Below are positions 23,305 to 60,543 of a DNA stretch of 64,000 nucleotides, in pieces. A program made the translations under genes and the position numbers. How positions within the stretch are numbered: position 1 is the stretch's first letter; the number at the start of each line of letters is the position of its first letter. Below the pieces are notes generated by a model. It did no database searches and was not told where the DNA came from. It worked only from the letters and a program-made list of their open reading frames with translations. Origin of the DNA: Wenyingzhuangia marina (lineage in GTDB: Bacteria; Bacteroidota; Bacteroidia; Flavobacteriales; Flavobacteriaceae); the NCBI RefSeq assembly GCF_900130035.1, contig NZ_FQXQ01000004.1, forward strand, positions 62,001 through 126,000. Reading direction: 5' to 3'.

Positions 23305-26300
23305 TTGGCAACGAAAAATAATACAAGAGTTAACTTTGCTTCAGCCAAACTAAGTACAGAATATCCGGACTTTTTAGATATTCAGATTAAATCTTTCCAA
23401 GATTTTTTCCAGTTGAAAACTAAGGCTGACGAACGAAGCGATGAAGGTTTGTATAAAACTTTCATGGACAATTTTCCAATTACTGACACACGTAACAACT
23501 TCGTGTTAGAATTTTTAGACTATTTTGTAGATCCACCTAGATACTCTATTGAAGAGTGTATTGAGCGTGGTTTGACTTATAGTTTACCATTAAAGGCAAG
23601 ATTGAAATTGTACTGTACAGATCCTGAACATGAGGATTTTGAAACCATCGTGCAAGATGTGTACTTAGGTACTGTTCCTTACATGACCAATTCTGGTACA
23701 TTTATCATTAACGGTGCTGAGCGTGTTATCGTTTCTCAGTTACACCGTTCTCCAGGGGTATTCTTTGGACAATCTTTCCATGCAAACGGTACAAAATTAT
23801 ATTCTGCAAGAGTAATCCCTTTTAAAGGATCTTGGATAGAATTTGCTACCGATATCAATCAAGTAATGTATGCTTATATTGATAGAAAGAAAAAATTACC
23901 TGTAACTACTTTATTCCGTGCGATTGGATTTGAAAGAGATAAGGATATTTTAGAAATCTTTAACCTTGCAGAAGAAGTTAAAGTTTCTAAGTCTGGATTA
24001 AAGAAAGTATTAGGAAGAAAATTAGCTGCTCGTGTATTAAGAACTTGGTTTGAGGACTTCGTTGATGAAGATACTGGAGAAGTTGTATCTATTGAGCGTA
24101 ACGAGATTGTATTTGATCGTGACACTATTTTAGATAAAGAACATATTGATGAAATTGTTGATACAGGAGCAAAAACAATTTTATTACACAAAGAAGATAA
24201 TGAAAGTGGAGATTACGCAATTATCCACAATACATTACAAAAAGATCCTACCAACTCTGAAAAAGAAGCAGTAGAGCATATCTATAGACAATTACGTAAT
24301 GCTGAGCCGCCAGATGAGGAAACTGCAAGAGGAATTATTGAAAAATTATTCTTCTCTGAGCAACGTTACAACTTAGGTGAAGTAGGACGTTTTAGAATGA
24401 ACAAAAAGTTAGGACTTAACGAATCTTTAGATGAGAAAGTTTTAACTAAGAATGATATTATCACTATCATCAAAAACTTAATTGAGTTAGTGAACTCAAA
24501 AGCAGAAATTGATGATATTGACCACTTATCTAACAGACGTGTTCGTACAGTAGGAGAACAATTAGCTGCTCAATTTGGAGTAGGTTTATCTCGTATGGCT
24601 CGTACTATTAGAGAAAGAATGAATGTACGTGATAACGAAGTGTTTACACCGATTGACTTAATTAACGCGAAGACTTTATCTTCTGTGATTAACTCATTCT
24701 TTGGAACCAACCAATTATCTCAGTTCATGGATCAAACAAACCCGTTAGCAGAGATTACTCACAAACGTAGATTATCAGCTTTAGGACCTGGAGGTTTATC
24801 TAGAGAAAGAGCAGGATTTGAGGTTCGTGACGTTCACTATACTCACTACGGTCGTTTGTGTCCTATTGAAACTCCTGAAGGTCCAAACATTGGATTGATT
24901 TCATCTTTAGCAGTATATGCAAAAGTGAACAATTTAGGGTTTATTGAAACAGCATACCGTAAGGTAGTAGATGGACAAGTAAATACTACTGAGGAACCTA
25001 TTTACTTAAGTGCTGAGGAAGAAGAAGGAATGAAGTTTGCACAATCAAACATTGATATTGCAGAAGACGGACAAATCAATTTAGAAAAAGTGATTGCTCG
25101 TGAAGAGGCTGATTATCCAGTTGTAACTCCACAGGACATTGACTACATGGATGTATCTCCAAACCAGATTGCATCTATTTCAGCTTCGTTGATTCCTTTC
25201 TTAGAACATGATGATGCGAACCGTGCCTTGATGGGATCTAACATGATGCGTCAAGCAGTTCCTTTATTAAAACCTGAAGCTCCTATTGTTGGAACAGGTT
25301 TAGAGCGTAGAGTTGCAAAAGATTCAAGAATCTTAATCAACGCGGAAGGTATTGGTGAAGTTATTTATGTTGATGCTAATAAAATAACTATTCGTTACGA
25401 AAGAACTGAGGAGGAAGCTTCTGTAAGTTTTGATTCTAACGAAATTACATACGACTTAATTAAGTTTAGAAAAACCAACCAAGGAACTTCTATCAACTTA
25501 AAGCCAATTGTTAAAGTTGGAGATACTGTTGAAGAAGGACAAGTATTGTGTGAAGGATATGCTACTCAAAAAGGTGAATTAGCCTTAGGACGTAACATGA
25601 AAGTAGCCTTCATGCCTTGGCAAGGGTACAACTTTGAGGATGCGATTGTGATTTCTGAAAAAGTTGTAAGAGAAGATATCTTTACTTCTATCCATATTGA
25701 TGAGTACTCTTTAGATGTAAGAGATACTAAATTAGGAGCAGAAGAGTTGACCAATGATATTCCTAACGTTTCTGAAGAGGCTACTAAAGACTTAGATGAA
25801 AACGGAATGATTCGTATTGGTGCTGAAGTGAAGCCTGGTGACATTTTAATTGGTAAGATTACTCCAAAAGGAGAATCAGATCCAACACCTGAAGAAAAAT
25901 TATTACGTGCCATCTTTGGAGACAAAGCAGGAGATGTAAAAGATGCTTCTTTAAAAGCTTCTCCATCATTAAGAGGAGTTGTAATTGGTAAAAAATTATT
26001 TAAGAAAGCAGTTAAAGATAAATCTAAGAGAGTTAGAGATAAGGAGCAAATTGAAGCTTTAGAAGCACAATTTACTCACGACTTTGAATCTTTAAAAGAT
26101 ACTTTAATAGACAAGTTGTTTACTTTAATTTCTGGTAAAACTTCTCAAGGAGTTCAGAATGATTTAGGAGAAGAAGTATTCCCTAAAGGTAAAAAGTATA
26201 CTTTAAAAATGTTAAACTCTGTTACAGACTTTACACATTTAACTAAAGGAGCTTGGACAACAGATGATCACTTAAATAACTTAGTTGCTGAATTAATTCA

Positions 26301-27117
26301 CAATTATAAAATTAAAGTTAGTGATTTACAAGGTGCTTTAAGACGTAAGAAATTTGCGATTACTATCGGAGATGAATTACCAGCAGGTGTCTTGAAATTA
26401 GCTAAAATTTATATCGCTAAGAAACGTAAGTTAAAAGTAGGAGATAAGATGGCAGGACGTCACGGTAACAAAGGTATTGTTGCTCGTATTGTTCGTCAAG
26501 AAGAAATGCCATTCTTAGAAGATGGAACACCTGTAGATATCGTATTGAATCCATTAGGGGTACCATCTCGTATGAACATTGGACAGATTTATGAAACCGT
26601 ATTAGGATGGGCAGGACAAAAATTAGGTCAAACTTATGCAACACCAATTTTTGATGGTGCGAAGTTAGATCAAATTAACGCCTTAACAGACGAAGCAGGA
26701 ATTCCAAGATTTGGACACACTTACTTATATGACGGTGGAACAGGAGAAAGATTTGACCAACCAGCAACTGTAGGTATTATCTACATGATTAAGTTAGGTC
26801 ACATGATTGATGATAAGATGCACGCACGTTCTATTGGACCATACTCATTAATTACACAACAACCATTAGGAGGTAAAGCTCAATTTGGAGGTCAGCGTTT
26901 TGGAGAGATGGAAGTATGGGCATTAGAAGCCTATGGAGCATCTAGTATTTTACGTGAAATTTTAACAGTTAAGTCTGATGATGTTATTGGTAGAGCCAAA
27001 ACTTACGAAGCAATCGTAAAAGGAGAACCAATGCCGGAACCAGGTTTACCAGAATCATTCAACGTGTTGATGCACGAATTGAAAGGTTTAGGATTAGACG
27101 TAAGATTAGAAGAATAG
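23305..27117 (+). CDS. rpoB: RNA polymerase beta subunit
   Basis: 1270 residues, standard for Flavobacteriia. The rifampicin-site region reads [20 protein letters not shown] and [20 protein letters not shown]; other signatures are [18 protein letters not shown] and [17 protein letters not shown]. The start is a TTG at 23305: the frame is open back to a stop at 23227 but contains no ATG or GTG, and TTG-GCA-ACG gives the MATKNN N terminus expected for the family. No Shine-Dalgarno sequence; the immediate leader is pyrimidine-rich. Confidence 0.98.
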
Positions 27118-27123
27118 TTGTTA

Positions 27124-27194
27124 AGTACAAAGTACAAAGTATAGAGTACAAAGTAAAAAGTATAAAGTAAAAAAGTATAGAGTATTGAGTTGAT
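27124..27194 (+). repeat. AGTANNN heptamer array, left half
   Basis: Ten units follow rpoB: AGTACAA twice, AGTATAG, AGTACAA, AGTAAAA, AGTATAA, AGTAAAA, then (after one extra A) AGTATAG, AGTATTG and AGTTGAT. The first four bases are constant and the last three vary. Confidence 0.85.
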
Positions 27195-27236
27195 AACATT
27201 TCGTTTAAGTAGCAAAGCTACTGTACTTAATACTCT
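27179..27236 (+). other. Nested hairpin in the rpoB-rpoC spacer
   Basis: AGAGTATTGAGT (27179-27190) pairs with ACTTAATACTCT (27225-27236) over 12 positions with one G-U pair. Inside, AGTAGC (27208-27213) and GCTACT (27217-27222) form a second stem. The arms are made from the two inverted heptamer arrays, and pairing can extend outward imperfectly. Confidence 0.6.
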
Positions 27237-27255
27237 GTACTAATTACTAGATACT
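27221..27255 (-). repeat. AGTANNN heptamer array, right half (inverted)
   Basis: Five in-phase units on the plus strand end in TACT: CTGTACT, TAATACT, CTGTACT, AATTACT, AGATACT. On the minus strand each is AGTANNN, so the array is an inverted counterpart of the one at 27124-27194. It ends 15 bases before the rpoC start. Confidence 0.8.
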
Positions 27256-27270
27256 AAAAAACAAAAGATC

Positions 27271-30200
27271 ATGGCAAGAAATAACGATAAAAACCCTACG
27301 CAAAAGAGATTTGAAAAAATTTCTATTGGTTTGGCATCACCAGAGTCTATTTTAGAGGCTTCTCATGGTGAAGTTTTAAAACCAGAAACAATCAATTACC
27401 GTACACACAAACCAGAAAGAGATGGTTTGTTTTGTGAGCGTATCTTTGGACCTATCAAAGATTTTGAATGTGCTTGTGGAAAGTACAAGAGAATTCGCTA
27501 CAAAGGTATTGTTTGTGATCGATGTGGTGTAGAGGTTACAGAAAAGAAAGTGCGTAGAGATAGAGTAGGTCACATTAATTTAGTGGTGCCTATTGCTCAC
27601 ATTTGGTATTTTAGATCATTACCTAACAAAATGGGATACCTTCTAGGGTTGCCATCTAAAAAGTTAGATATGATTATTTACTACGAAAGATACGTAGTAA
27701 TTCAACCAGGTAATGCAACTCAATTAGATGGAACTCCATTACAAAAAATGGATTTCTTAACAGAAGAGGAGTATTTAGATATTTTAGAAACTGTTCCTAT
27801 GGAAAATAGATATTTGGATGATGATGATCCAAATAAATTTATTGCCAAAATGGGAGCTGAGTGTTTAATTGAGTTATTAGATCGTATTGATTTAGAAACT
27901 TTATCATATGAATTAAGACACAAAGCAAACACAGAAACTTCTAAGCAACGTAAAACAGAGGCTTTAAAACGTTTAAATGTAGTTGAGGCTTTCCGTGAAT
28001 CTCAAAAGAACAGAGAGAACAATCCATCATGGATGATCTTAAAGGCTATTCCGGTGATTCCACCAGAATTACGTCCTTTGGTACCATTAGATGGAGGTCG
28101 TTTTGCTACTTCTGATTTAAATGATTTATACCGTAGAGTAATCATCCGTAACAACCGTTTAAAGCGTTTGGTAGAAATTCAGGCACCTGAAGTTATTTTA
28201 CGTAACGAAAAACGTATGTTACAAGAATCTGTAGATTCATTGTTTGATAACACTCGTAAATCATCAGCAGTTAAAACAGAATCTAACAGACCATTAAAAT
28301 CTTTATCAGATTCATTAAAAGGTAAACAAGGTCGTTTCCGTCAAAACTTACTTGGTAAGCGTGTGGATTATTCTGCTCGTTCGGTAATTGTTGTAGGACC
28401 TACTTTGGCTTTATCAGAATGTGGATTACCAAAAGATATGGCAGCAGAGTTATACAAACCATTTATCATTCGTAAGTTAATTGAGCGTGGTGTTGTAAAA
28501 ACAGTAAAATCTGCAAAGAAAATAATAGATAAAAAAGAGCCTGTAGTTTGGGATATTTTAGAAAATGTAATTAAAGGACACCCTGTATTATTAAACCGTG
28601 CCCCTACGTTACACCGTTTAGGTATTCAAGCATTCCAGCCTAAGTTAATTGAAGGAAAAGCAATTCAGTTACATCCATTAGTATGTTCGGCATTTAACGC
28701 CGATTTTGATGGGGATCAGATGGCGGTACATTTACCGTTAGGACCTGAAGCTATTTTAGAAGCTCAAATGTTATTATTAGGTTCTCACTCTATCTTGAAT
28801 CCAGCGAATGGTGCTCCTATCACAGTACCTTCTCAGGATATGGTACTTGGTCTTTATTATATGACCAAATTACGTGTTACTGATGAAAAACATACCGTAA
28901 AAGGAGAAGGGTTGACGTTCTATTCACCAGAAGAAGTTACTATTGCTTTTAATGAAAAAGCAGTTGAATTAAATGCTGGAATTAAAGTTAGAACTCAAGA
29001 TATTGATGAAAACGGAAATCAAGTAACTAGAATTATAGAAACTACAGTTGGTAGAGTATTGTTTAATGAACACGTACCAGCTGCAGCAGGATATATAAAT
29101 GAAGTATTAACTAAGAAATCTTTAAGAGGAATTATTGCAAAAGTGTTAAAAGCTACTGATATTCCTACTACTGGTAAATTCTTAGATAATATTAAAGATA
29201 TGGGATTCAAGTTTGCTTTTAGAGGTGGATTGTCATTCTCATTAGGGGATATTATTATTCCAGCTGAAAAGAAGCAGATGATTGCTGATGCCAATGTTGA
29301 AGTAGAGATGATTATTCAAAACTATAACATGGGTATGTTAACGAACAAAGAGCGTTACAACCAGGTGATTGATATTTGGGGATCTACAAACAATCAATTG
29401 ACAGAATTGTCTATGAAACGTTTGAGAGAAGATCAACAAGGATTTAACTCTGTGTTTATGATGCTTGATTCTGGAGCCCGTGGTTCTAAAGAACAAATTC
29501 GTCAGTTAACAGGTATGCGTGGATTGATGGCAAAGCCTAAAAAATCTACATCATCAGGAGGAGAAATTATTGAAAACCCAATTTTATCTAACTTTAAGGA
29601 AGGTTTATCAATTTTAGAATACTTTATTTCTACTCACGGTGCTCGTAAAGGTCTTGCCGATACAGCATTAAAGACTGCCGATGCAGGATACTTAACACGT
29701 CGTTTGGTAGATGTTGCACAAGATGTAATTATTAACGAATTTGACTGTGGTACTTTAAGAGGTTTAGAAGTATCTGCTTTAAAGAAAAATGACGAAATTG
29801 TTGAGTCTTTAAGTGAGCGTATTGTAGGTCGTGTTGCATTACACGATGTTAAAGATCCTGTAAATCATGAAGTAATGGTAACTGCAGGTTCTGAAATTAC
29901 TGAAGAATTAGCTGCTGTTATTGAAGAATCAGGGTTAGATACTGTTGAAGTAAGATCTGCATTAACATGTGAATCTAAGAGAGGTATCTGTTCTAAGTGT
30001 TACGGACAATCAATGTCAACACGTGATATGGTTCAAATAGGAGAATCTGTTGGAGTTATTGCTGCACAGTCTATTGGAGAACCTGGTACACAGTTAACAT
30101 TACGTACTTTCCACGTTGGAGGGGTAGCTGGTAACATTTCTGAAGATAATAAGTTAATTGCTAAGTTTAGCGGTGCATTGATTATTGACGACTTGGTAAC

Positions 30201-31557
30201 TGTACCAGGTAAGAATCCTCAAGGTGAGCCAGTAGAGATTGTAATTTCTCGTACAGCAGAAGCTAAAATTATTGATGATAAAATCGGAACTGTATTAAGT
30301 AATACAGTAATTCCTTATGGTTCTTATATTTTTGTAAATGGACAAACATCTATTAACAAAGGAGATGCTATCTGTCAATGGGATCCATTTAACGGTGTAA
30401 TTGTTTCTGAATTTGCAGGTAAAATTGCCTTTGAAGATTTAGAACAAGGTATTAACTATGCAGTTGAAATTGATGAACAAACAGGTTTCCAAGAAAAAGT
30501 AATTATTGAATCTAAAGACAAGAAGAAAATTCCTGCTTTATTGATTCAAGATCTTGATGGAAATACTTTAAGATCATACTCTTTACCTTTGGGAGCTCAC
30601 TTAATGGTGAACAATGGTGAAGAAATTGAAACAGGTAAAACATTGGTTAAAATTCCTCGTAAGTCTGGTAAGGCTGGAGATATTACTGGAGGTTTACCAC
30701 GTGTAACAGAATTGTTTGAGGCACGTAACCCATCTAACCCAGCAGTTGTTGCTGAAACTGACGGTGTGGTATCTTTTGGTAAAATCAAGCGTGGTAACCG
30801 TGAAATTATTGTTGAGTCTAAGTTTGGTGATGTTAAGAAATACTTAGTGAAGTTATCTAGTCAAATTTTAGTACAAGAGAATGATTATGTAAAAGCTGGT
30901 ATGGCTTTATCTGATGGTTCTGTAACGCCAGAAGATATCTTAAGAATTCAAGGACCTTCTGCAGTGCAACAGTATATTGTTAATGAAATTCAAGAAGTTT
31001 ACCGTTTACAAGGGGTAAGAATTAATGATAAGCATTACGAGGTAGTTGTACGTCAAATGATGCGTAAAGTTAGAATTATTGATTCTGGAGATACTTTATT
31101 CTTAGAGAACTCTTTAGTACATAAGAATGACTTTATAGAGAAGAATGATGAGATCTACGGTATGAAGGTGATTGAAGATGCTGGAGGTTCTAACATATTT
31201 AAAGCGGGTCAAATTATTACTGCTCGTCAATTAAGAGATGAAAACTCAAGATTGAAGCGTGAAGATAATGCTGAAATTGTTGCAAGAGATGCTAGACCGG
31301 CAACGGCAGAGCAAATTTTACAAGGTATTACAAGAGCATCTTTACAAACTAAATCGTTTATTTCTGCAGCATCGTTCCAGGAAACAACAAAAGTGTTGAA
31401 TGAAGCAGCTGTAAGTGGTAAGATTGATTACTTAGAAGGATTAAAAGAAAACGTTATTGTTGGTAAGAAAATTCCTGCTGGTACAGGTATGAGAGCTTAT
31501 AACAACGTAATTGTTGGTCCTAAAGAGGAAATTGAAGAAAGTTTTGAAATTAAATAA
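27271..31557 (+). CDS. rpoC: RNA polymerase beta' subunit
   Basis: 1428 residues, the long Bacteroidota form. The zinc-binding [19 protein letters not shown] is near the N terminus, the catalytic [12 protein letters not shown] holds the three magnesium-binding aspartates, and the second zinc site [13 protein letters not shown] plus the trigger-loop/bridge region ([19 protein letters not shown]) are present. Transcribed with rpoB across the heptamer array. Confidence 0.98.
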
Positions 31558-53746: not shown

Positions 53747-55846
53747 ATGTTTGATTTTGATACAAATATTACTTACTTAACAGGAATTGGGCCTGCCAAA
53801 GCATTAATGCTCCAAAAAGAAATGGGGGTTTTTAATGCAAATCAGTTATTGAATCTATTTCCAAACCGATATGTAGATAAATCAAAGATGTTTACTATTC
53901 GTGAATTGCAGGCAGGAAACACCGAAGTACAGATCAAAGGAATAGTGACAGATTTAAAAGAAGTAAAACAAAAGAGAGGTTCTCGTTTGGTAGCTACTTT
54001 TAAAGATGAAACAGGGAGTATGGAACTGATTTGGTTTAGGGTTAATAGATGGCTAAAGACCAGTATAAAGATTAACGAACCATATGTGATTTTTGGAAAG
54101 CTCAATTTTTTTAATGGAACTTTTAGCATGCCTCATCCAGATATGGAATTAGAGGTAAATTATAAAAAGAATTTTATAGCAGGTTTACAGGCTATTTATC
54201 CATCTACCGAGAAAATGAGTGCCAAAGGCTTTAATAATAAAGTGATGTCTAAGGCGATTCAACATTTAATTAAAGAAGCTTATCCTTTTATTCAGGAAAC
54301 CTTGTCTCAAGAAATATTAGATGAATATCAATTGTTAAGCAAAAAAGAAGCTTTATTACATATTCATTTTCCTAAAAATCAAGAGTATTTAGCTAGGGCT
54401 CAAAAACGATTAAAGTTTGAAGAGTTTTTCTTTATTCAAACCCAACTCATCAGAAACAAACTGGTGAGAAAAGACAAAATAAAAGGATTTGTGTTTGGAC
54501 AAGTAGGCGATTATTTTAATGATTTTTACAAATCAGGTTTAAAGTTTGATTTGACCAACGCTCAAAAAAGAGTATTGAAAGAAATCAGAGCAGATATGGC
54601 TAGTGGTGCGCATATGAATCGATTGCTGCAAGGAGATGTGGGAGCAGGAAAAACCATTGTGGCTTTGTTAACTATTTTAATTGCCTTGGATAATAATTTC
54701 CAAACAGCCATGTTAGCTCCCACAGAAATTTTAGCCACACAGCATTTTCAAGCGGTATCAGAATTGGTGACTCCATTTAATATTTCTGTAAAATTACTAA
54801 CAGGATCCACTAGAACCAAAGAACGTAGAATCATTCATGAAAGTTTAGAAGATGGTTCTTTGCAAATTTTAATAGGAACTCATGCCATTCTAGAAGATAA
54901 AGTGGTATTTAAAAATTTAGGCTTGGCCATTATTGATGAACAACATAGATTTGGAGTGGCTCAACGTTCTAAAATGTGGATGAAAAACACTTTGCCACCT
55001 CATGTATTAATTATGACGGCAACGCCTATTCCGAGAACTTTGGCTATGAGTGCGTATGGTGATTTAGATGTTTCTATGATTGATGAATTACCACCAGGAA
55101 GAAAACCTATTCAAACCGTACATAGATTTGATAGTGCTCGTTTGCGAGTCTTTAAATTTATGCGTGATGAAATTGAAAAAGGAAGACAAATTTACGTGGT
55201 GTATCCTTTGATAGAAGAATCTGAAGCCATGGATTATAAAGATTTACAAGATGGATATGAGAGTATTCAACGTGAATTTCCTCTCCCAAAATACAGAATT
55301 AGTATTGTACATGGAAAAATGAAACCTGCTGATAAGGAATTAGAAATGCAGCGTTTTGTAAAAGGGGAAACACAAATAATGGTGGCCACTACAGTCATAG
55401 AAGTTGGGGTAAATGTTCCCAATGCTTCCGTAATGATTATAGAAAGCGCAGAACGTTTTGGTTTGTCTCAATTACATCAGTTAAGAGGACGAGTAGGACG
55501 TGGAGCCGATCAGAGTTATTGTATTTTAATGTCTGGCGTAAAATTATCTAATGATTCTAAAACTCGTTTGGAAACTATGGTAAGAACCAGTGATGGATTT
55601 GAAATTGCAGAGGTAGATTTAAAACTCCGTGGTCCAGGAAATTTAATGGGTACGCAACAAAGCGGTGTGTTAAACTTAAAAATTGCTGATTTGGTAAGAG
55701 ATTCTAAAGAATTACACATGGCAAGAAATACAGCTTTGGAAGTGTTAAGAGAAGATCCTAATTTGACTTTAACTAAAAATTTACCTATCAAAAAAGCTTA
55801 TCAGCAAATACATAAAAGAACTAGTATTTGGGCGAATATTTCTTAA
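53747..55846 (+). CDS. recG: ATP-dependent DNA helicase RecG
   Basis: Branch-migrating helicase that remodels stalled forks, 699 residues. The wedge/OB domain is at about 55-150 (GIVTDLKEVKQKRGSRLVAT); helicase motifs: I GDVGAGKT, II IDEQHRFGVAQR (DEQH), III MTATPIPRTLA, VI QLRGRVGRG; the C-terminal TRG region is present. The ATG at 53747 is used; a GTG three codons upstream is possible. Confidence 0.97.
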   Translation: MFDFDTNITYLTGIGPAKALMLQKEMGVFNANQLLNLFPNRYVDKSKMFTIRELQAGNTEVQIKGIVTDLKEVKQKRGSRLVATFKDETGSMELIWFRVNRWLKTSIKINEPYVIFGKLNFFNGTFSMPHPDMELEVNYKKNFIAGLQAIYPSTEKMSAKGFNNKVMSKAIQHLIKEAYPFIQETLSQEILDEYQLLSKKEALLHIHFPKNQEYLARAQKRLKFEEFFFIQTQLIRNKLVRKDKIKGFVFGQVGDYFNDFYKSGLKFDLTNAQKRVLKEIRADMASGAHMNRLLQGDVGAGKTIVALLTILIALDNNFQTAMLAPTEILATQHFQAVSELVTPFNISVKLLTGSTRTKERRIIHESLEDGSLQILIGTHAILEDKVVFKNLGLAIIDEQHRFGVAQRSKMWMKNTLPPHVLIMTATPIPRTLAMSAYGDLDVSMIDELPPGRKPIQTVHRFDSARLRVFKFMRDEIEKGRQIYVVYPLIEESEAMDYKDLQDGYESIQREFPLPKYRISIVHGKMKPADKELEMQRFVKGETQIMVATTVIEVGVNVPNASVMIIESAERFGLSQLHQLRGRVGRGADQSYCILMSGVKLSNDSKTRLETMVRTSDGFEIAEVDLKLRGPGNLMGTQQSGVLNLKIADLVRDSKELHMARNTALEVLREDPNLTLTKNLPIKKAYQQIHKRTSIWANIS

Positions 55847-55865: not shown

Positions 55866-55900
55866 ATTGAGCATTGTAAATTGCACATTGCTAATTGAAA
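55866..55900 (+). repeat. ATTGNNN heptamer array upstream of pheT
   Basis: Five in-phase units: ATTGAGC, ATTGTAA, ATTGCAC, ATTGCTA, ATTGAAA. Four bases constant, three variable, as in the AGTANNN array. The array overlaps the -33 region of the pheT promoter. Confidence 0.75.
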
Positions 55901-55937: not shown

Positions 55938-58364
55938 ATGAAAATATCATACAATTGGTTAAAACAATTTATTAAGATTGACTGGGAAGCTGAAAAGACT
56001 GGTGAATTGTTAACTGATCTAGGTTTAGAAGTAGAGGGGATTGAAAAGGTAGAATCTATCAAAGGAAGCTTAGAAGGAGTGGTGGTTGGTGAGGTTTTAA
56101 CTTGTGAAAAACATCCTAATGCAGATAAATTAAGTGTTACTACAGTAAATGTTGGAGGTGAAGCTCCTATTCAAGTAGTGTGTGGTGCTCCAAATGTGGC
56201 AGCGGGTCAAAAAGTGCCTGTGGCTACTGTTGGAACGATCTTGTATGATGAAAAAGGAGAAGGGTTTAAAATTAAAAAAGGAAAAATTAGAGGAGAAGAA
56301 AGTCACGGAATGATTTGTGCCGAAGATGAATTAGGTCTAGGTAAAGGTCATGATGGGATCATGGTTTTGGCTGAAGATTTGGTTCCTGGAACTCCAATTG
56401 CTGAGGTATTTAATATTGAGGTAGATGAAGTTTTTGAAATAGGATTAACGCCTAACAGAGCCGATGCGATGAGTCACTTGGGAGTAGCAAGAGACTTACG
56501 TGCTGGATTGATGCAACAAGGAATTCAAAAAGAATTGGTAACACCTTCTGTAAGTGATTTTCACGTATATGAAAGAGCTTTAAAGTTTGATATTCATGTC
56601 AAGAATTTTGAATTGGCTCCTAAATATGCAGGAGTTGCTATTAAAGATATAAAAGTTGCAGATTCCCCAGAATGGTTGCAAAATAAATTAAAAGCAATTG
56701 GAATTAAACCTACAAATAACGTAGTAGATGTAACTAATTACGTATTACACGAATTAGGGCAGCCATTACACGCTTTTGATGCGAATAAAATTTCAGGAGG
56801 AAAAGTAGTGGTAACTACCTTAGAAGAAGGAACGAAGTTTACTACTTTAGATGGAGTTGAACGTACTTTAAGCGAAGAAGATTTAATGATTTGTGATGCT
56901 GATGAAACGCCATTGTGTATTGCAGGAGTTTTTGGAGGTTTAGAATCAGGGGTTACAGAAAATACGACTGCAATCTTTTTAGAATCAGCCTATTTTAATC
57001 CAGTATCAATTCGTAAAACAGCTAAAAGACACGGTTTAAATACCGATGCTTCTTTCCGTTTTGAAAGAGGAATTGATCCTAATGGAACAAAATACGCGTT
57101 GATTAGAGCAGCTTTGTTAATAGAGGAAATTACAGGAGGAAAAGCTGTTTCTGATGTAGATGTAGTGTACCCAAATAAGATTGAAGATTTTGAAGTTTTT
57201 ATGTCTTATGAAAACGTAGCAAGAATTATTGGTCAAAAATTACCGAATGATACCATTAAAAATATTTTAGCTTCTTTAGAAATTAAAATCAATAGCGAAA
57301 CCGAAGGTGGTTTAGGATTGGTAGTGCCTGCTTATAGAGTAGATGTGCAAAGAGAAGCGGATATTGTAGAAGAAATTTTACGTGTTTACGGATATAACAA
57401 TATTGAGTTTTCACACAAATTAAATACTTCTATTGAACCTTCAAGGTTTGATGGTGTAAAAACTGAAAATACCATTGCAGAGCAATTAAGAGTTCAAGGG
57501 TTTAATGAAACCATGGCAAACTCTTTAACCAAGCCTTCTTATGTTGAATTGTCAGAAAATTTAAATTCTGAGAACAATGTAGAAATGTTAAATCCTTTAA
57601 GTGGTGATTTGGCAGTGATGAGACAATCTTTATTGTTTAGTGGTTTGGAATCTGTAAGTTATAACATCAACAGAAAAAATAATGATATTAAGTTTTACGA
57701 GTTTGGTAAAACCTATCATAAATACAATGAGAAGTACGAGGAGAAAAAACACTTGACTTTATTTATTTCAGGAAACAGAGATAAAGAAGCTTGGAATGCT
57801 CCAAAAAAAATCACTGATTTTTATTATATCAAAGCCGTTGTTAATGGTGTTTTAGAAAGATTAGGTCATAAAAACGTTAAAGTAACTCCAACTAAAAACG
57901 ATGTATTTTCTGAAGGAATTACTTTTGCTTTAGGAAAAATGAAGTTGGTAGATGTGGGAATGGTAAGTCCTAAAATCTTAAAAGAATTTGGAATTAAACA
58001 AGAGGTTTTTTATGCAGATTTTGATTGGGATACTATTTTAAAAATATCACAAAACAACAAATTAAAAGTAACAGCTTTGCCAAAATATCCTTTGGTAAAA
58101 AGAGATTTGGCTTTGTTACTAAACAAAGAGGTTGCTTTTAAAGATTTATACAATGCTGCTTTTCAATCAGAAAAACAATTGTTAAAAGAAGTTGATTTGT
58201 TTGATGTGTATGAAGGAGATAAATTACCAGAAGGCAAAAAGTCTTATGCCTTGAGTTTTGTGTTACAAGATGAAAACAAAACTTTAGAAGACAAACAAAT
58301 AGAAAAAATTATGACCAAGCTTCAAAACTCGTTTGAAAAACAGTTTGATGCTTCATTAAGATAA
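55938..58364 (+). CDS. pheT: Phenylalanyl-tRNA synthetase beta subunit
   Basis: 808 residues, normal length. The tRNA-binding domain (about 40-150, VVVGEVLTCEKHPNADKLSV), B3/B4 domain (about 210-390, ESAYFNPVSIRKTAKRHGL), B5 and the catalytic-like core follow, and the C-terminal anticodon-binding FDX-ACB domain ends KIMTKLQNSFEKQFDASLR. pheS is not adjacent, as is common in Bacteroidota. Confidence 0.98.
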   Translation: MKISYNWLKQFIKIDWEAEKTGELLTDLGLEVEGIEKVESIKGSLEGVVVGEVLTCEKHPNADKLSVTTVNVGGEAPIQVVCGAPNVAAGQKVPVATVGTILYDEKGEGFKIKKGKIRGEESHGMICAEDELGLGKGHDGIMVLAEDLVPGTPIAEVFNIEVDEVFEIGLTPNRADAMSHLGVARDLRAGLMQQGIQKELVTPSVSDFHVYERALKFDIHVKNFELAPKYAGVAIKDIKVADSPEWLQNKLKAIGIKPTNNVVDVTNYVLHELGQPLHAFDANKISGGKVVVTTLEEGTKFTTLDGVERTLSEEDLMICDADETPLCIAGVFGGLESGVTENTTAIFLESAYFNPVSIRKTAKRHGLNTDASFRFERGIDPNGTKYALIRAALLIEEITGGKAVSDVDVVYPNKIEDFEVFMSYENVARIIGQKLPNDTIKNILASLEIKINSETEGGLGLVVPAYRVDVQREADIVEEILRVYGYNNIEFSHKLNTSIEPSRFDGVKTENTIAEQLRVQGFNETMANSLTKPSYVELSENLNSENNVEMLNPLSGDLAVMRQSLLFSGLESVSYNINRKNNDIKFYEFGKTYHKYNEKYEEKKHLTLFISGNRDKEAWNAPKKITDFYYIKAVVNGVLERLGHKNVKVTPTKNDVFSEGITFALGKMKLVDVGMVSPKILKEFGIKQEVFYADFDWDTILKISQNNKLKVTALPKYPLVKRDLALLLNKEVAFKDLYNAAFQSEKQLLKEVDLFDVYEGDKLPEGKKSYALSFVLQDENKTLEDKQIEKIMTKLQNSFEKQFDASLR

Positions 58365-60463: not shown

Positions 60464-60499
60464 TGTTGTGGAGTTGTTTGTTTGAGAGTTCTTAATTTT

Positions 60500-60543
60500 C
60501 ACTACTCACTACTCACTACTCACTACTCACTACTCACTACTCA
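60500..60543. repeat. Perfect CACTACT tandem repeat, 6.3 units
   Basis: Six exact copies of CACTACT and a partial one. On the minus strand the unit is AGTAGTG, of the AGTANNN type. The stop codon of the downstream minus-strand gene (60537-60539) lies within the array. Confidence 0.95.

Follow-up and report, generated by a model that had tools for sequence, protein, structure and literature searches.

The STRR heptamers of heterocystous cyanobacteria are intergenic repeats with a period of 7 nucleotides (nt) and near-identical tandem units; to our knowledge, they have not been described as inverted five-unit arms accompanying an S23 gene. REP/BIME palindromes are dispersed in many short copies with one cognate protein gene, that of the RAYT transposase. 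TRAP is an 11-subunit ring that binds spaced (G/U)AG triplets in RNA.

Several further repeats and proteins bear on the locus described here. TAACTGA direct repeats occur in Beggiatoaceae, cyanobacteria and Bacteroidetes, and an RNA-binding reader has been proposed for them (MacGregor 2015; PMC4679880). Xanthomonas campestris ATCC 33913 carries (GGGANTN)n repeats, mostly of four units, in 70 convergent pairs (Rehm et al. 2015; PMC4692102); Xanthomonas genomes hold 70 to 75 such pairs each, transcribed and placed near the stop or start codons of aligned genes, and the repeats have been interpreted as G-quadruplexes with no link made to S23 (PMC4692102). S23 proteins are known from 23S rRNA intervening sequences (IVS) in Coxiella and Leptospira and have no known function, and an IVS with an S23 open reading frame (ORF) is regarded as selfish or mobile by an unknown mechanism (PMC4990558). 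No paper joining heptamer repeats to S23 was found in a literature search that took in few subscription papers and no preprints. Heptamer repeats and S23 proteins are each already known; their connection is new as far as we have found.

The window analyzed here is a 64,000-nt stretch of the Wenyingzhuangia marina genome. The spacer from the rpoB stop (27117) to the rpoC ATG (27271) measures 153 nt (27118-27270) and contains, as a sequence-only reading had described, ten forward AGTANNN-type and five reverse NNNTACT units (Table 1). The forward series has one 1-nt slip and ends in AGTT: seven in-register AGTA units span 27124-27172, and after the slip AGTA stands at 27174 and 27181 and AGTT at 27188. 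The 5′ arm, with ten AG positions against the usual five, possibly represents two five-unit arms joined together. No ORF lies inside this copy. The array does not contain a single GGG, and the G-quadruplex reading, which calls for a run of at least three G per heptamer, was rejected on the absence of G-tracts.

Table 1. Features of the rpoB-rpoC spacer and its flanking genes (window coordinates)
Feature	Position	Strand	Remarks
rpoB, upstream host gene	23305..27117	+	ORF call; 3′ end 98% identical in closest congener
5′ arm of ten AG(TA) units spaced 7 nt apart	27124..27189	+	Twice the usual five
Loop, position where S23-bearing elements hold the S23 gene	27190..27220	+	Compare S23-bearing element, L039:7126-7534
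Small inner hairpin, AGTAGC-AAA-GCTACT	27208..27222	+	Similar GTAGC cores in other copies
3′ arm, exact NNNTACT in five copies (AGTANNN x5 when read on the opposite strand)	27221..27255	-	
RNA hairpin fold of the whole spacer	27118..27260	+	-38.3 kcal/mol, z -4.95
rpoC, downstream host gene	27271..31557	+	ORF call

A gene-bearing counterpart lies in the his operon of the same genome, between hisH and hisA, in the order AGTANNNx4-AG-[S23]-CT-NNNTACTx4. Its product (P0001) matches PF05635 (E value, 2.4e-39) and TIGR02436 (1.7e-36), and the S23 gene is under purifying selection (dN/dS of 0.04 to 0.08 in four species). The arm architecture AGTANNNx4-AG / CT-NNNTACTx4 is common to this element and the rpoB-rpoC copy. 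Since the solo copies are built like the his-operon element apart from the gene, the preferred and probable reading of the rpoB-rpoC array is an ORF-less (nonautonomous, MITE-like) derivative of an S23 heptamer element. This link to genes for S23 four-helix-bundle proteins is one that the earlier reading of the locus overlooked.

Within the 3.24-Mb genome (11 contigs), the pattern (AGTANNN)4 has 41 forward and 39 reverse matches, as opposed to 0 forward and 14 reverse when the pattern is read backwards; these 14 plausibly come from perfect tandems. The convergent pattern AGTA-AGTA-AG...CT-TACT-TACT is matched 26 times per strand here and 9 to 28 times in each of six congeners, and its reversed control has no match in this genome or in the six congeners. 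These counts, from pattern searches and selected stretches, place at least two dozen convergent arrays in the genome, which is not a product of chance, and they uphold a genome-wide class of constant-plus-variable heptamers. The convergent pattern also occurs in named genomes of Nostoc, Chloroflexi, Patescibacteria, Planctomycetes, Acidobacteria, Hymenobacter, Bacteroides and others, mostly as heterogeneous arrays rather than perfect tandems, and the finding of the same AGTANNN architecture in Nostoc bears out an earlier suggestion of likeness to cyanobacterial heptamers.

That class had been proposed from three related tracts in the window, where there is only one other strong period-7 tract and a weaker array of ATTGNNN units. 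The strong tract is a perfect (CACTACT)n tandem at 60494-60541, at the 3′ ends of two converging genes; perfect AGTAGTG tandems occur elsewhere in the genome (C1:104010, C3:360237 and C8:89119), and tandems of both kinds are a locally expanded form of the same AGTA heptamer. The weaker array has one arm (55866-55897), situated between an ORF end at 55846 and an ORF start at 55938 and directly preceding a TAnnTTTG-like promoter. It represents a second core type in the window, also with five units.

Inverted heptamer arrays stand on either side of S23 genes (PF05635), an association that holds across phyla. The sample consisted of 194 distinct S23 genes from many phyla, drawn from relatives and a phylum sample chosen regardless of arrays and from 29 genomes picked by the AGTA pattern. 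Autocorrelation of the flanks at lag 7 was 0.369 and 0.346, compared with 0.299 in control intergenic sequence and 0.275 after shuffling; peaks occurred at lags 7, 14 and 21 only, and the lag-7 signal persists in each sample separately, including both that were not chosen by arrays. Of 378 flanks, 250 had their best lag (among 4 to 13) at 7 and 57 at 8; 37 of 189 genes (about 20%) have no clear period. The two arms of one element share one core in inverted orientation, with a mean score of 16.8, whereas mismatched pairs averaged 8.4 and the direct orientation 10.8. An arm's own partner outscored all 12 random partners in 66% of elements (7.7% expected), and a strong arm match is absent in about a third of S23 genes.

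The association extends to the presence of genes and arrays in whole genomes. S23 is present in 28 of the 29 genomes picked blind by the AGTA pattern, and the survey of 60 relatives found AGTA elements in 16 of the 41 genomes that have S23 and in none of the 19 that lack it (P = 0.0011). Some congeners rich in solo AGTA copies (G003, for example) have no AGTA-type S23 among the S23 loci read. Genes for S23 or four-helix-bundle proteins were found in 116 of 148 Bacteroidota genomes sampled, and they occur in many other phyla too. Carriage as phage or plasmid cargo was rejected, S23 having 0 matches in 50,697 phage records and 23 in 72,556 plasmids.

Both the core and the period of the arrays follow S23 lineage. 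The core types seen among S23 genes are AGTA, GGTA, AGC, CAGT, TAGA, CAAGA and CG. Between genes in different genomes and unrelated neighborhoods, arm similarity tracks S23 identity (Mantel r = 0.186; best of 500 permutations, 0.069). Close S23 pairs (at least 55% identity) have an arm score of 12.3; distant S23 genes within one genome, which serve as the control for base composition, score 9.0. A switch between period 7 and period 8 or 9 occurred 8 times on the S23 tree, compared with 26.9 times after shuffling (minimum, 20), and 6 to 7 times versus about 18 with one locus per context group. Another S23 gene of this genome (C8:90165-90482) belongs to a clade with period 8 and itself has flanks of the octamer type. 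L327, L328 and related cyanobacterial S23 loci have 9-nt or other GC-rich arrays, such as GGGGGATGA, and the known G-rich repeats of Nostoc may be S23 arrays.

Arms typically contain five cores. In the 91 arms from the same genus, retrieved by a search that required three units, the number of AG sites at a spacing of 7 was three in 6 arms, four in 15, five in 65, six in 4 and seven in 1, and the sixth arm position is at background level. Arms from other phyla had exactly five AG sites in 88 of 114 cases in a search that forced at least five, and the right arms in those phyla, for which four were forced, also peak at five. Runs of AG over all period-7 S23 arms of any core reach their maximum at five and fall at six. 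Between orthologous elements, 1.2% of core positions changed as against 11.9% of free positions (P = 9e-14), a roughly 10-fold difference that overstates core conservation, having been computed from orthologues with a still recognizable array. At the middle free base of solo copies in the genus, the frequency of A on the sense strand is 0.67 and 0.70 in the two arms versus 0.525 in array-free spacers, the orthologues in this comparison not being fully independent.

The best explanation for the rpoB-rpoC array, and one that we favor with fair confidence, is that it is an ORF-less copy of an S23 heptamer element, whose binding, mobility and function we infer. A full element would comprise a gene for an S23/four-helix-bundle protein of about 120 amino acids between two convergent arms, each typically with five short AG-containing cores (AGTA here) at a fixed 7-nt spacing and free bases between them. 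The PDB homologues of S23, 2gsc and 2rld, have five chains each, and four-helix bundles are reported to form a homopentameric toroid in Xcc0516 (PMC4990558). A ring protein in which every subunit holds one core of a single-stranded RNA would be consistent with the number of cores (five per arm), the free bases between them, a spacing that varies with lineage and the sense-strand bias. An S23 pentamer would then bind one arm in the transcript, with one AG core for each subunit. Of RNA, single-stranded DNA and double-stranded DNA, single-stranded RNA is most likely the form in which the array would be bound.

When not bound by S23, the arms could pair into a hairpin. In S23-bearing elements the 5′ arm immediately precedes the start codon of S23, with a median of 26 nt between that codon and the last core, so that S23 could bind its own mRNA and may control its own message. 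Solo copies, including that between rpoB and rpoC, would be bound in trans by the S23 protein of the his-operon element; a reader protein acting in trans, already envisaged in the sequence-only reading, is likely. That reading suggested that this protein could contact every third unit from one DNA face, three units making about two turns. Contact of this kind was rejected on the five-unit arms, which are not a multiple of three, and on the clade-specific periods of 8 and 9, found in arms of otherwise like design, and the asymmetry of the arms relative to transcription indicates the transcript rather than a face of B-DNA.

The elements would spread and replace each other in operon spacers, probably assisted by S23. 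In congeners, an orthologous spacer may be occupied by the same element, by an AGTA element with other free bases, by one that differs in core or has a period of 8 nt, or by a hairpin of unrelated type, or it may hold none of these. Between rpoB and rpoC, the congener with a 98% identical rpoB 3′ end has a different AGTA array, four other congeners have one orthologous 4+4 element in common, and a sixth has no array. Presence in relatives thus holds for an AGTA array in five of the six congeners and fails in the one with an array-free spacer, as it does in some other genera, where the spacer is short and array-free. Several further Flavobacteriaceae genera (five loci) have inverted CAGT-core heptamer arrays at this position, and the spacer is therefore a recurrent site. 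Array types replace whole spacers instead of inserting cleanly. A filled site matched by a cleanly empty one, from which the insertion junction could be mapped, was not found, and the pair formed by L037 and its orthologue L454 is degenerate. Four congener loci (L412, L418, L439 and L452), orthologous to spacers of C1:314000-321000, hold another kind of dispersed hairpin, GAGCGGAGTCGAGA...CTCGACTCCGCTCGATGACC. From dispersal and turnover together, we infer that the elements are mobile.

This turnover bears on the possibility that nothing is mobile and that S23 is a resident RNA-binding regulator whose sites are the arrays in amino-acid, sulfur and transcription operons. The neighbors of arrays in this genome (rpoBC, hisH, hisF, cysD, cysN, argC, a carbamoyltransferase gene, thrA and ilvB) would suit such a regulon, and purifying selection on both the cores and S23 would be expected of it. 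A conserved regulon would not, however, have other core types, ordinary hairpins or nothing at the same spacers in sister species, nor would it be spread over distant phyla with patchy copy number, and we regard this alternative as unlikely.

Less likely still is a DNA-level MITE family in which a separate transposase would recognize the arms as its terminal inverted repeats and S23 would be a frequent passenger or accessory. Such a family would account for inverted ends, dozens of short copies, a frequent T/A beside the ends and the turnover of types at individual sites. But only four of seven bases are fixed, the repeat period and core track the S23 protein, and a casual, nonsystematic look noticed no other conserved gene beside the arrays. 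Placement relative to transcription also argues against it, since the sense-strand bias is accompanied by a strict orientation: all 33 solo copies in the genus with both neighbors called lie between codirectional genes. Of the 194 S23 genes themselves, 140 point the same way as both neighbors and 14 run opposite to both.

An ordinary mRNA hairpin selected for base pairing (a REP-like stabilizer, RNase III site or attenuator) has strong RNA folds in its favor, with z of -3 to -6 in most copies tested. We consider it very improbable because the free bases do not pair across arms (0.31 observed versus 0.38 between elements; z = -1.5; 108 elements), and selection acts on the spaced motif, not on pairing. 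A search of the array, which lies inside the rpoBC operon, for an intrinsic terminator (GC-rich stem and T-run) found none, Rfam gave no match, and explanations by terminator, sigma-70 promoter or Rfam family are unsupported. Slippage of readerless heptamer microsatellites that grow and shrink, for which the perfect (AGTAGTG)n and (CACTACT)n tandems of this genome and the standing of heptamers as a common class of long repeats (cited in PMC4679880 and PMC4692102) could be adduced, is already contradicted by fixed five-unit arms, convergent layout, diverged free bases beside kept cores, S23 association and lineage-specific period, and has hardly any probability.

With the rpoB-rpoC array read as an ORF-less S23 heptamer element, S23 proteins gain a candidate target, and intergenic heptamers, repeatedly noted without a cause, gain a candidate reader. 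The link also allows a prediction of the core and spacing read by each protein lineage. More broadly, S23 may be a very large family of ring-shaped RNA-binding proteins, each lineage reading its own core and period as five-unit inverted arrays, and together these would form an unrecognized class of operon-dwelling elements, a generalization that we take seriously without counting it probable. If true, it would bring rRNA intervening sequences under one explanation with the intergenic heptamers found in cyanobacteria, xanthomonads and Bacteroidetes, copies lacking the gene being present even inside rpoBC, and tiny elements would routinely invade and rewrite essential operons of this kind.

Each of the known systems shares some of these properties. 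AGTA arrays resemble STRR heptamers in period and intergenic location, but the rpoB-rpoC array has three of seven bases free and two convergent arms. TAACTGA repeats are likewise intergenic heptamers with a similarly patchy distribution over phyla, but they consist of identical units in direct orientation that precede start codons, with neither inverted arms nor S23. The (GGGANTN)n repeats of Xanthomonas and the GGGGA(C/T)T repeats of Nostoc, both taken for G-quadruplexes by Rehm et al. (PMC4692102), also combine fixed and free bases, and Xanthomonas campestris encodes the S23 protein Xcc0516; unlike these, AGTA arrays have no G-tracts. REP/BIME sequences present the same combination of dispersed short copies and one cognate protein gene, with another protein family and no array of spaced cores. 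The likeness to TRAP, itself a proposal, as is the binding by S23, is that of a ring protein taking one spaced motif per subunit with free spacer bases; the fold is unrelated, and TRAP has 11 subunits where S23 homologues have five chains and the arms five AG cores. IVS differ in their near-perfect 28-bp stem, as opposed to arrays of spaced cores in protein-coding operons with many ORF-less copies, and the copy described here lies between rpoB and rpoC, not in a 23S rRNA gene. In common with the elements, IVS have a sense-oriented ORF of the S23 family whose flanking inverted ends can form a stem in the transcript.
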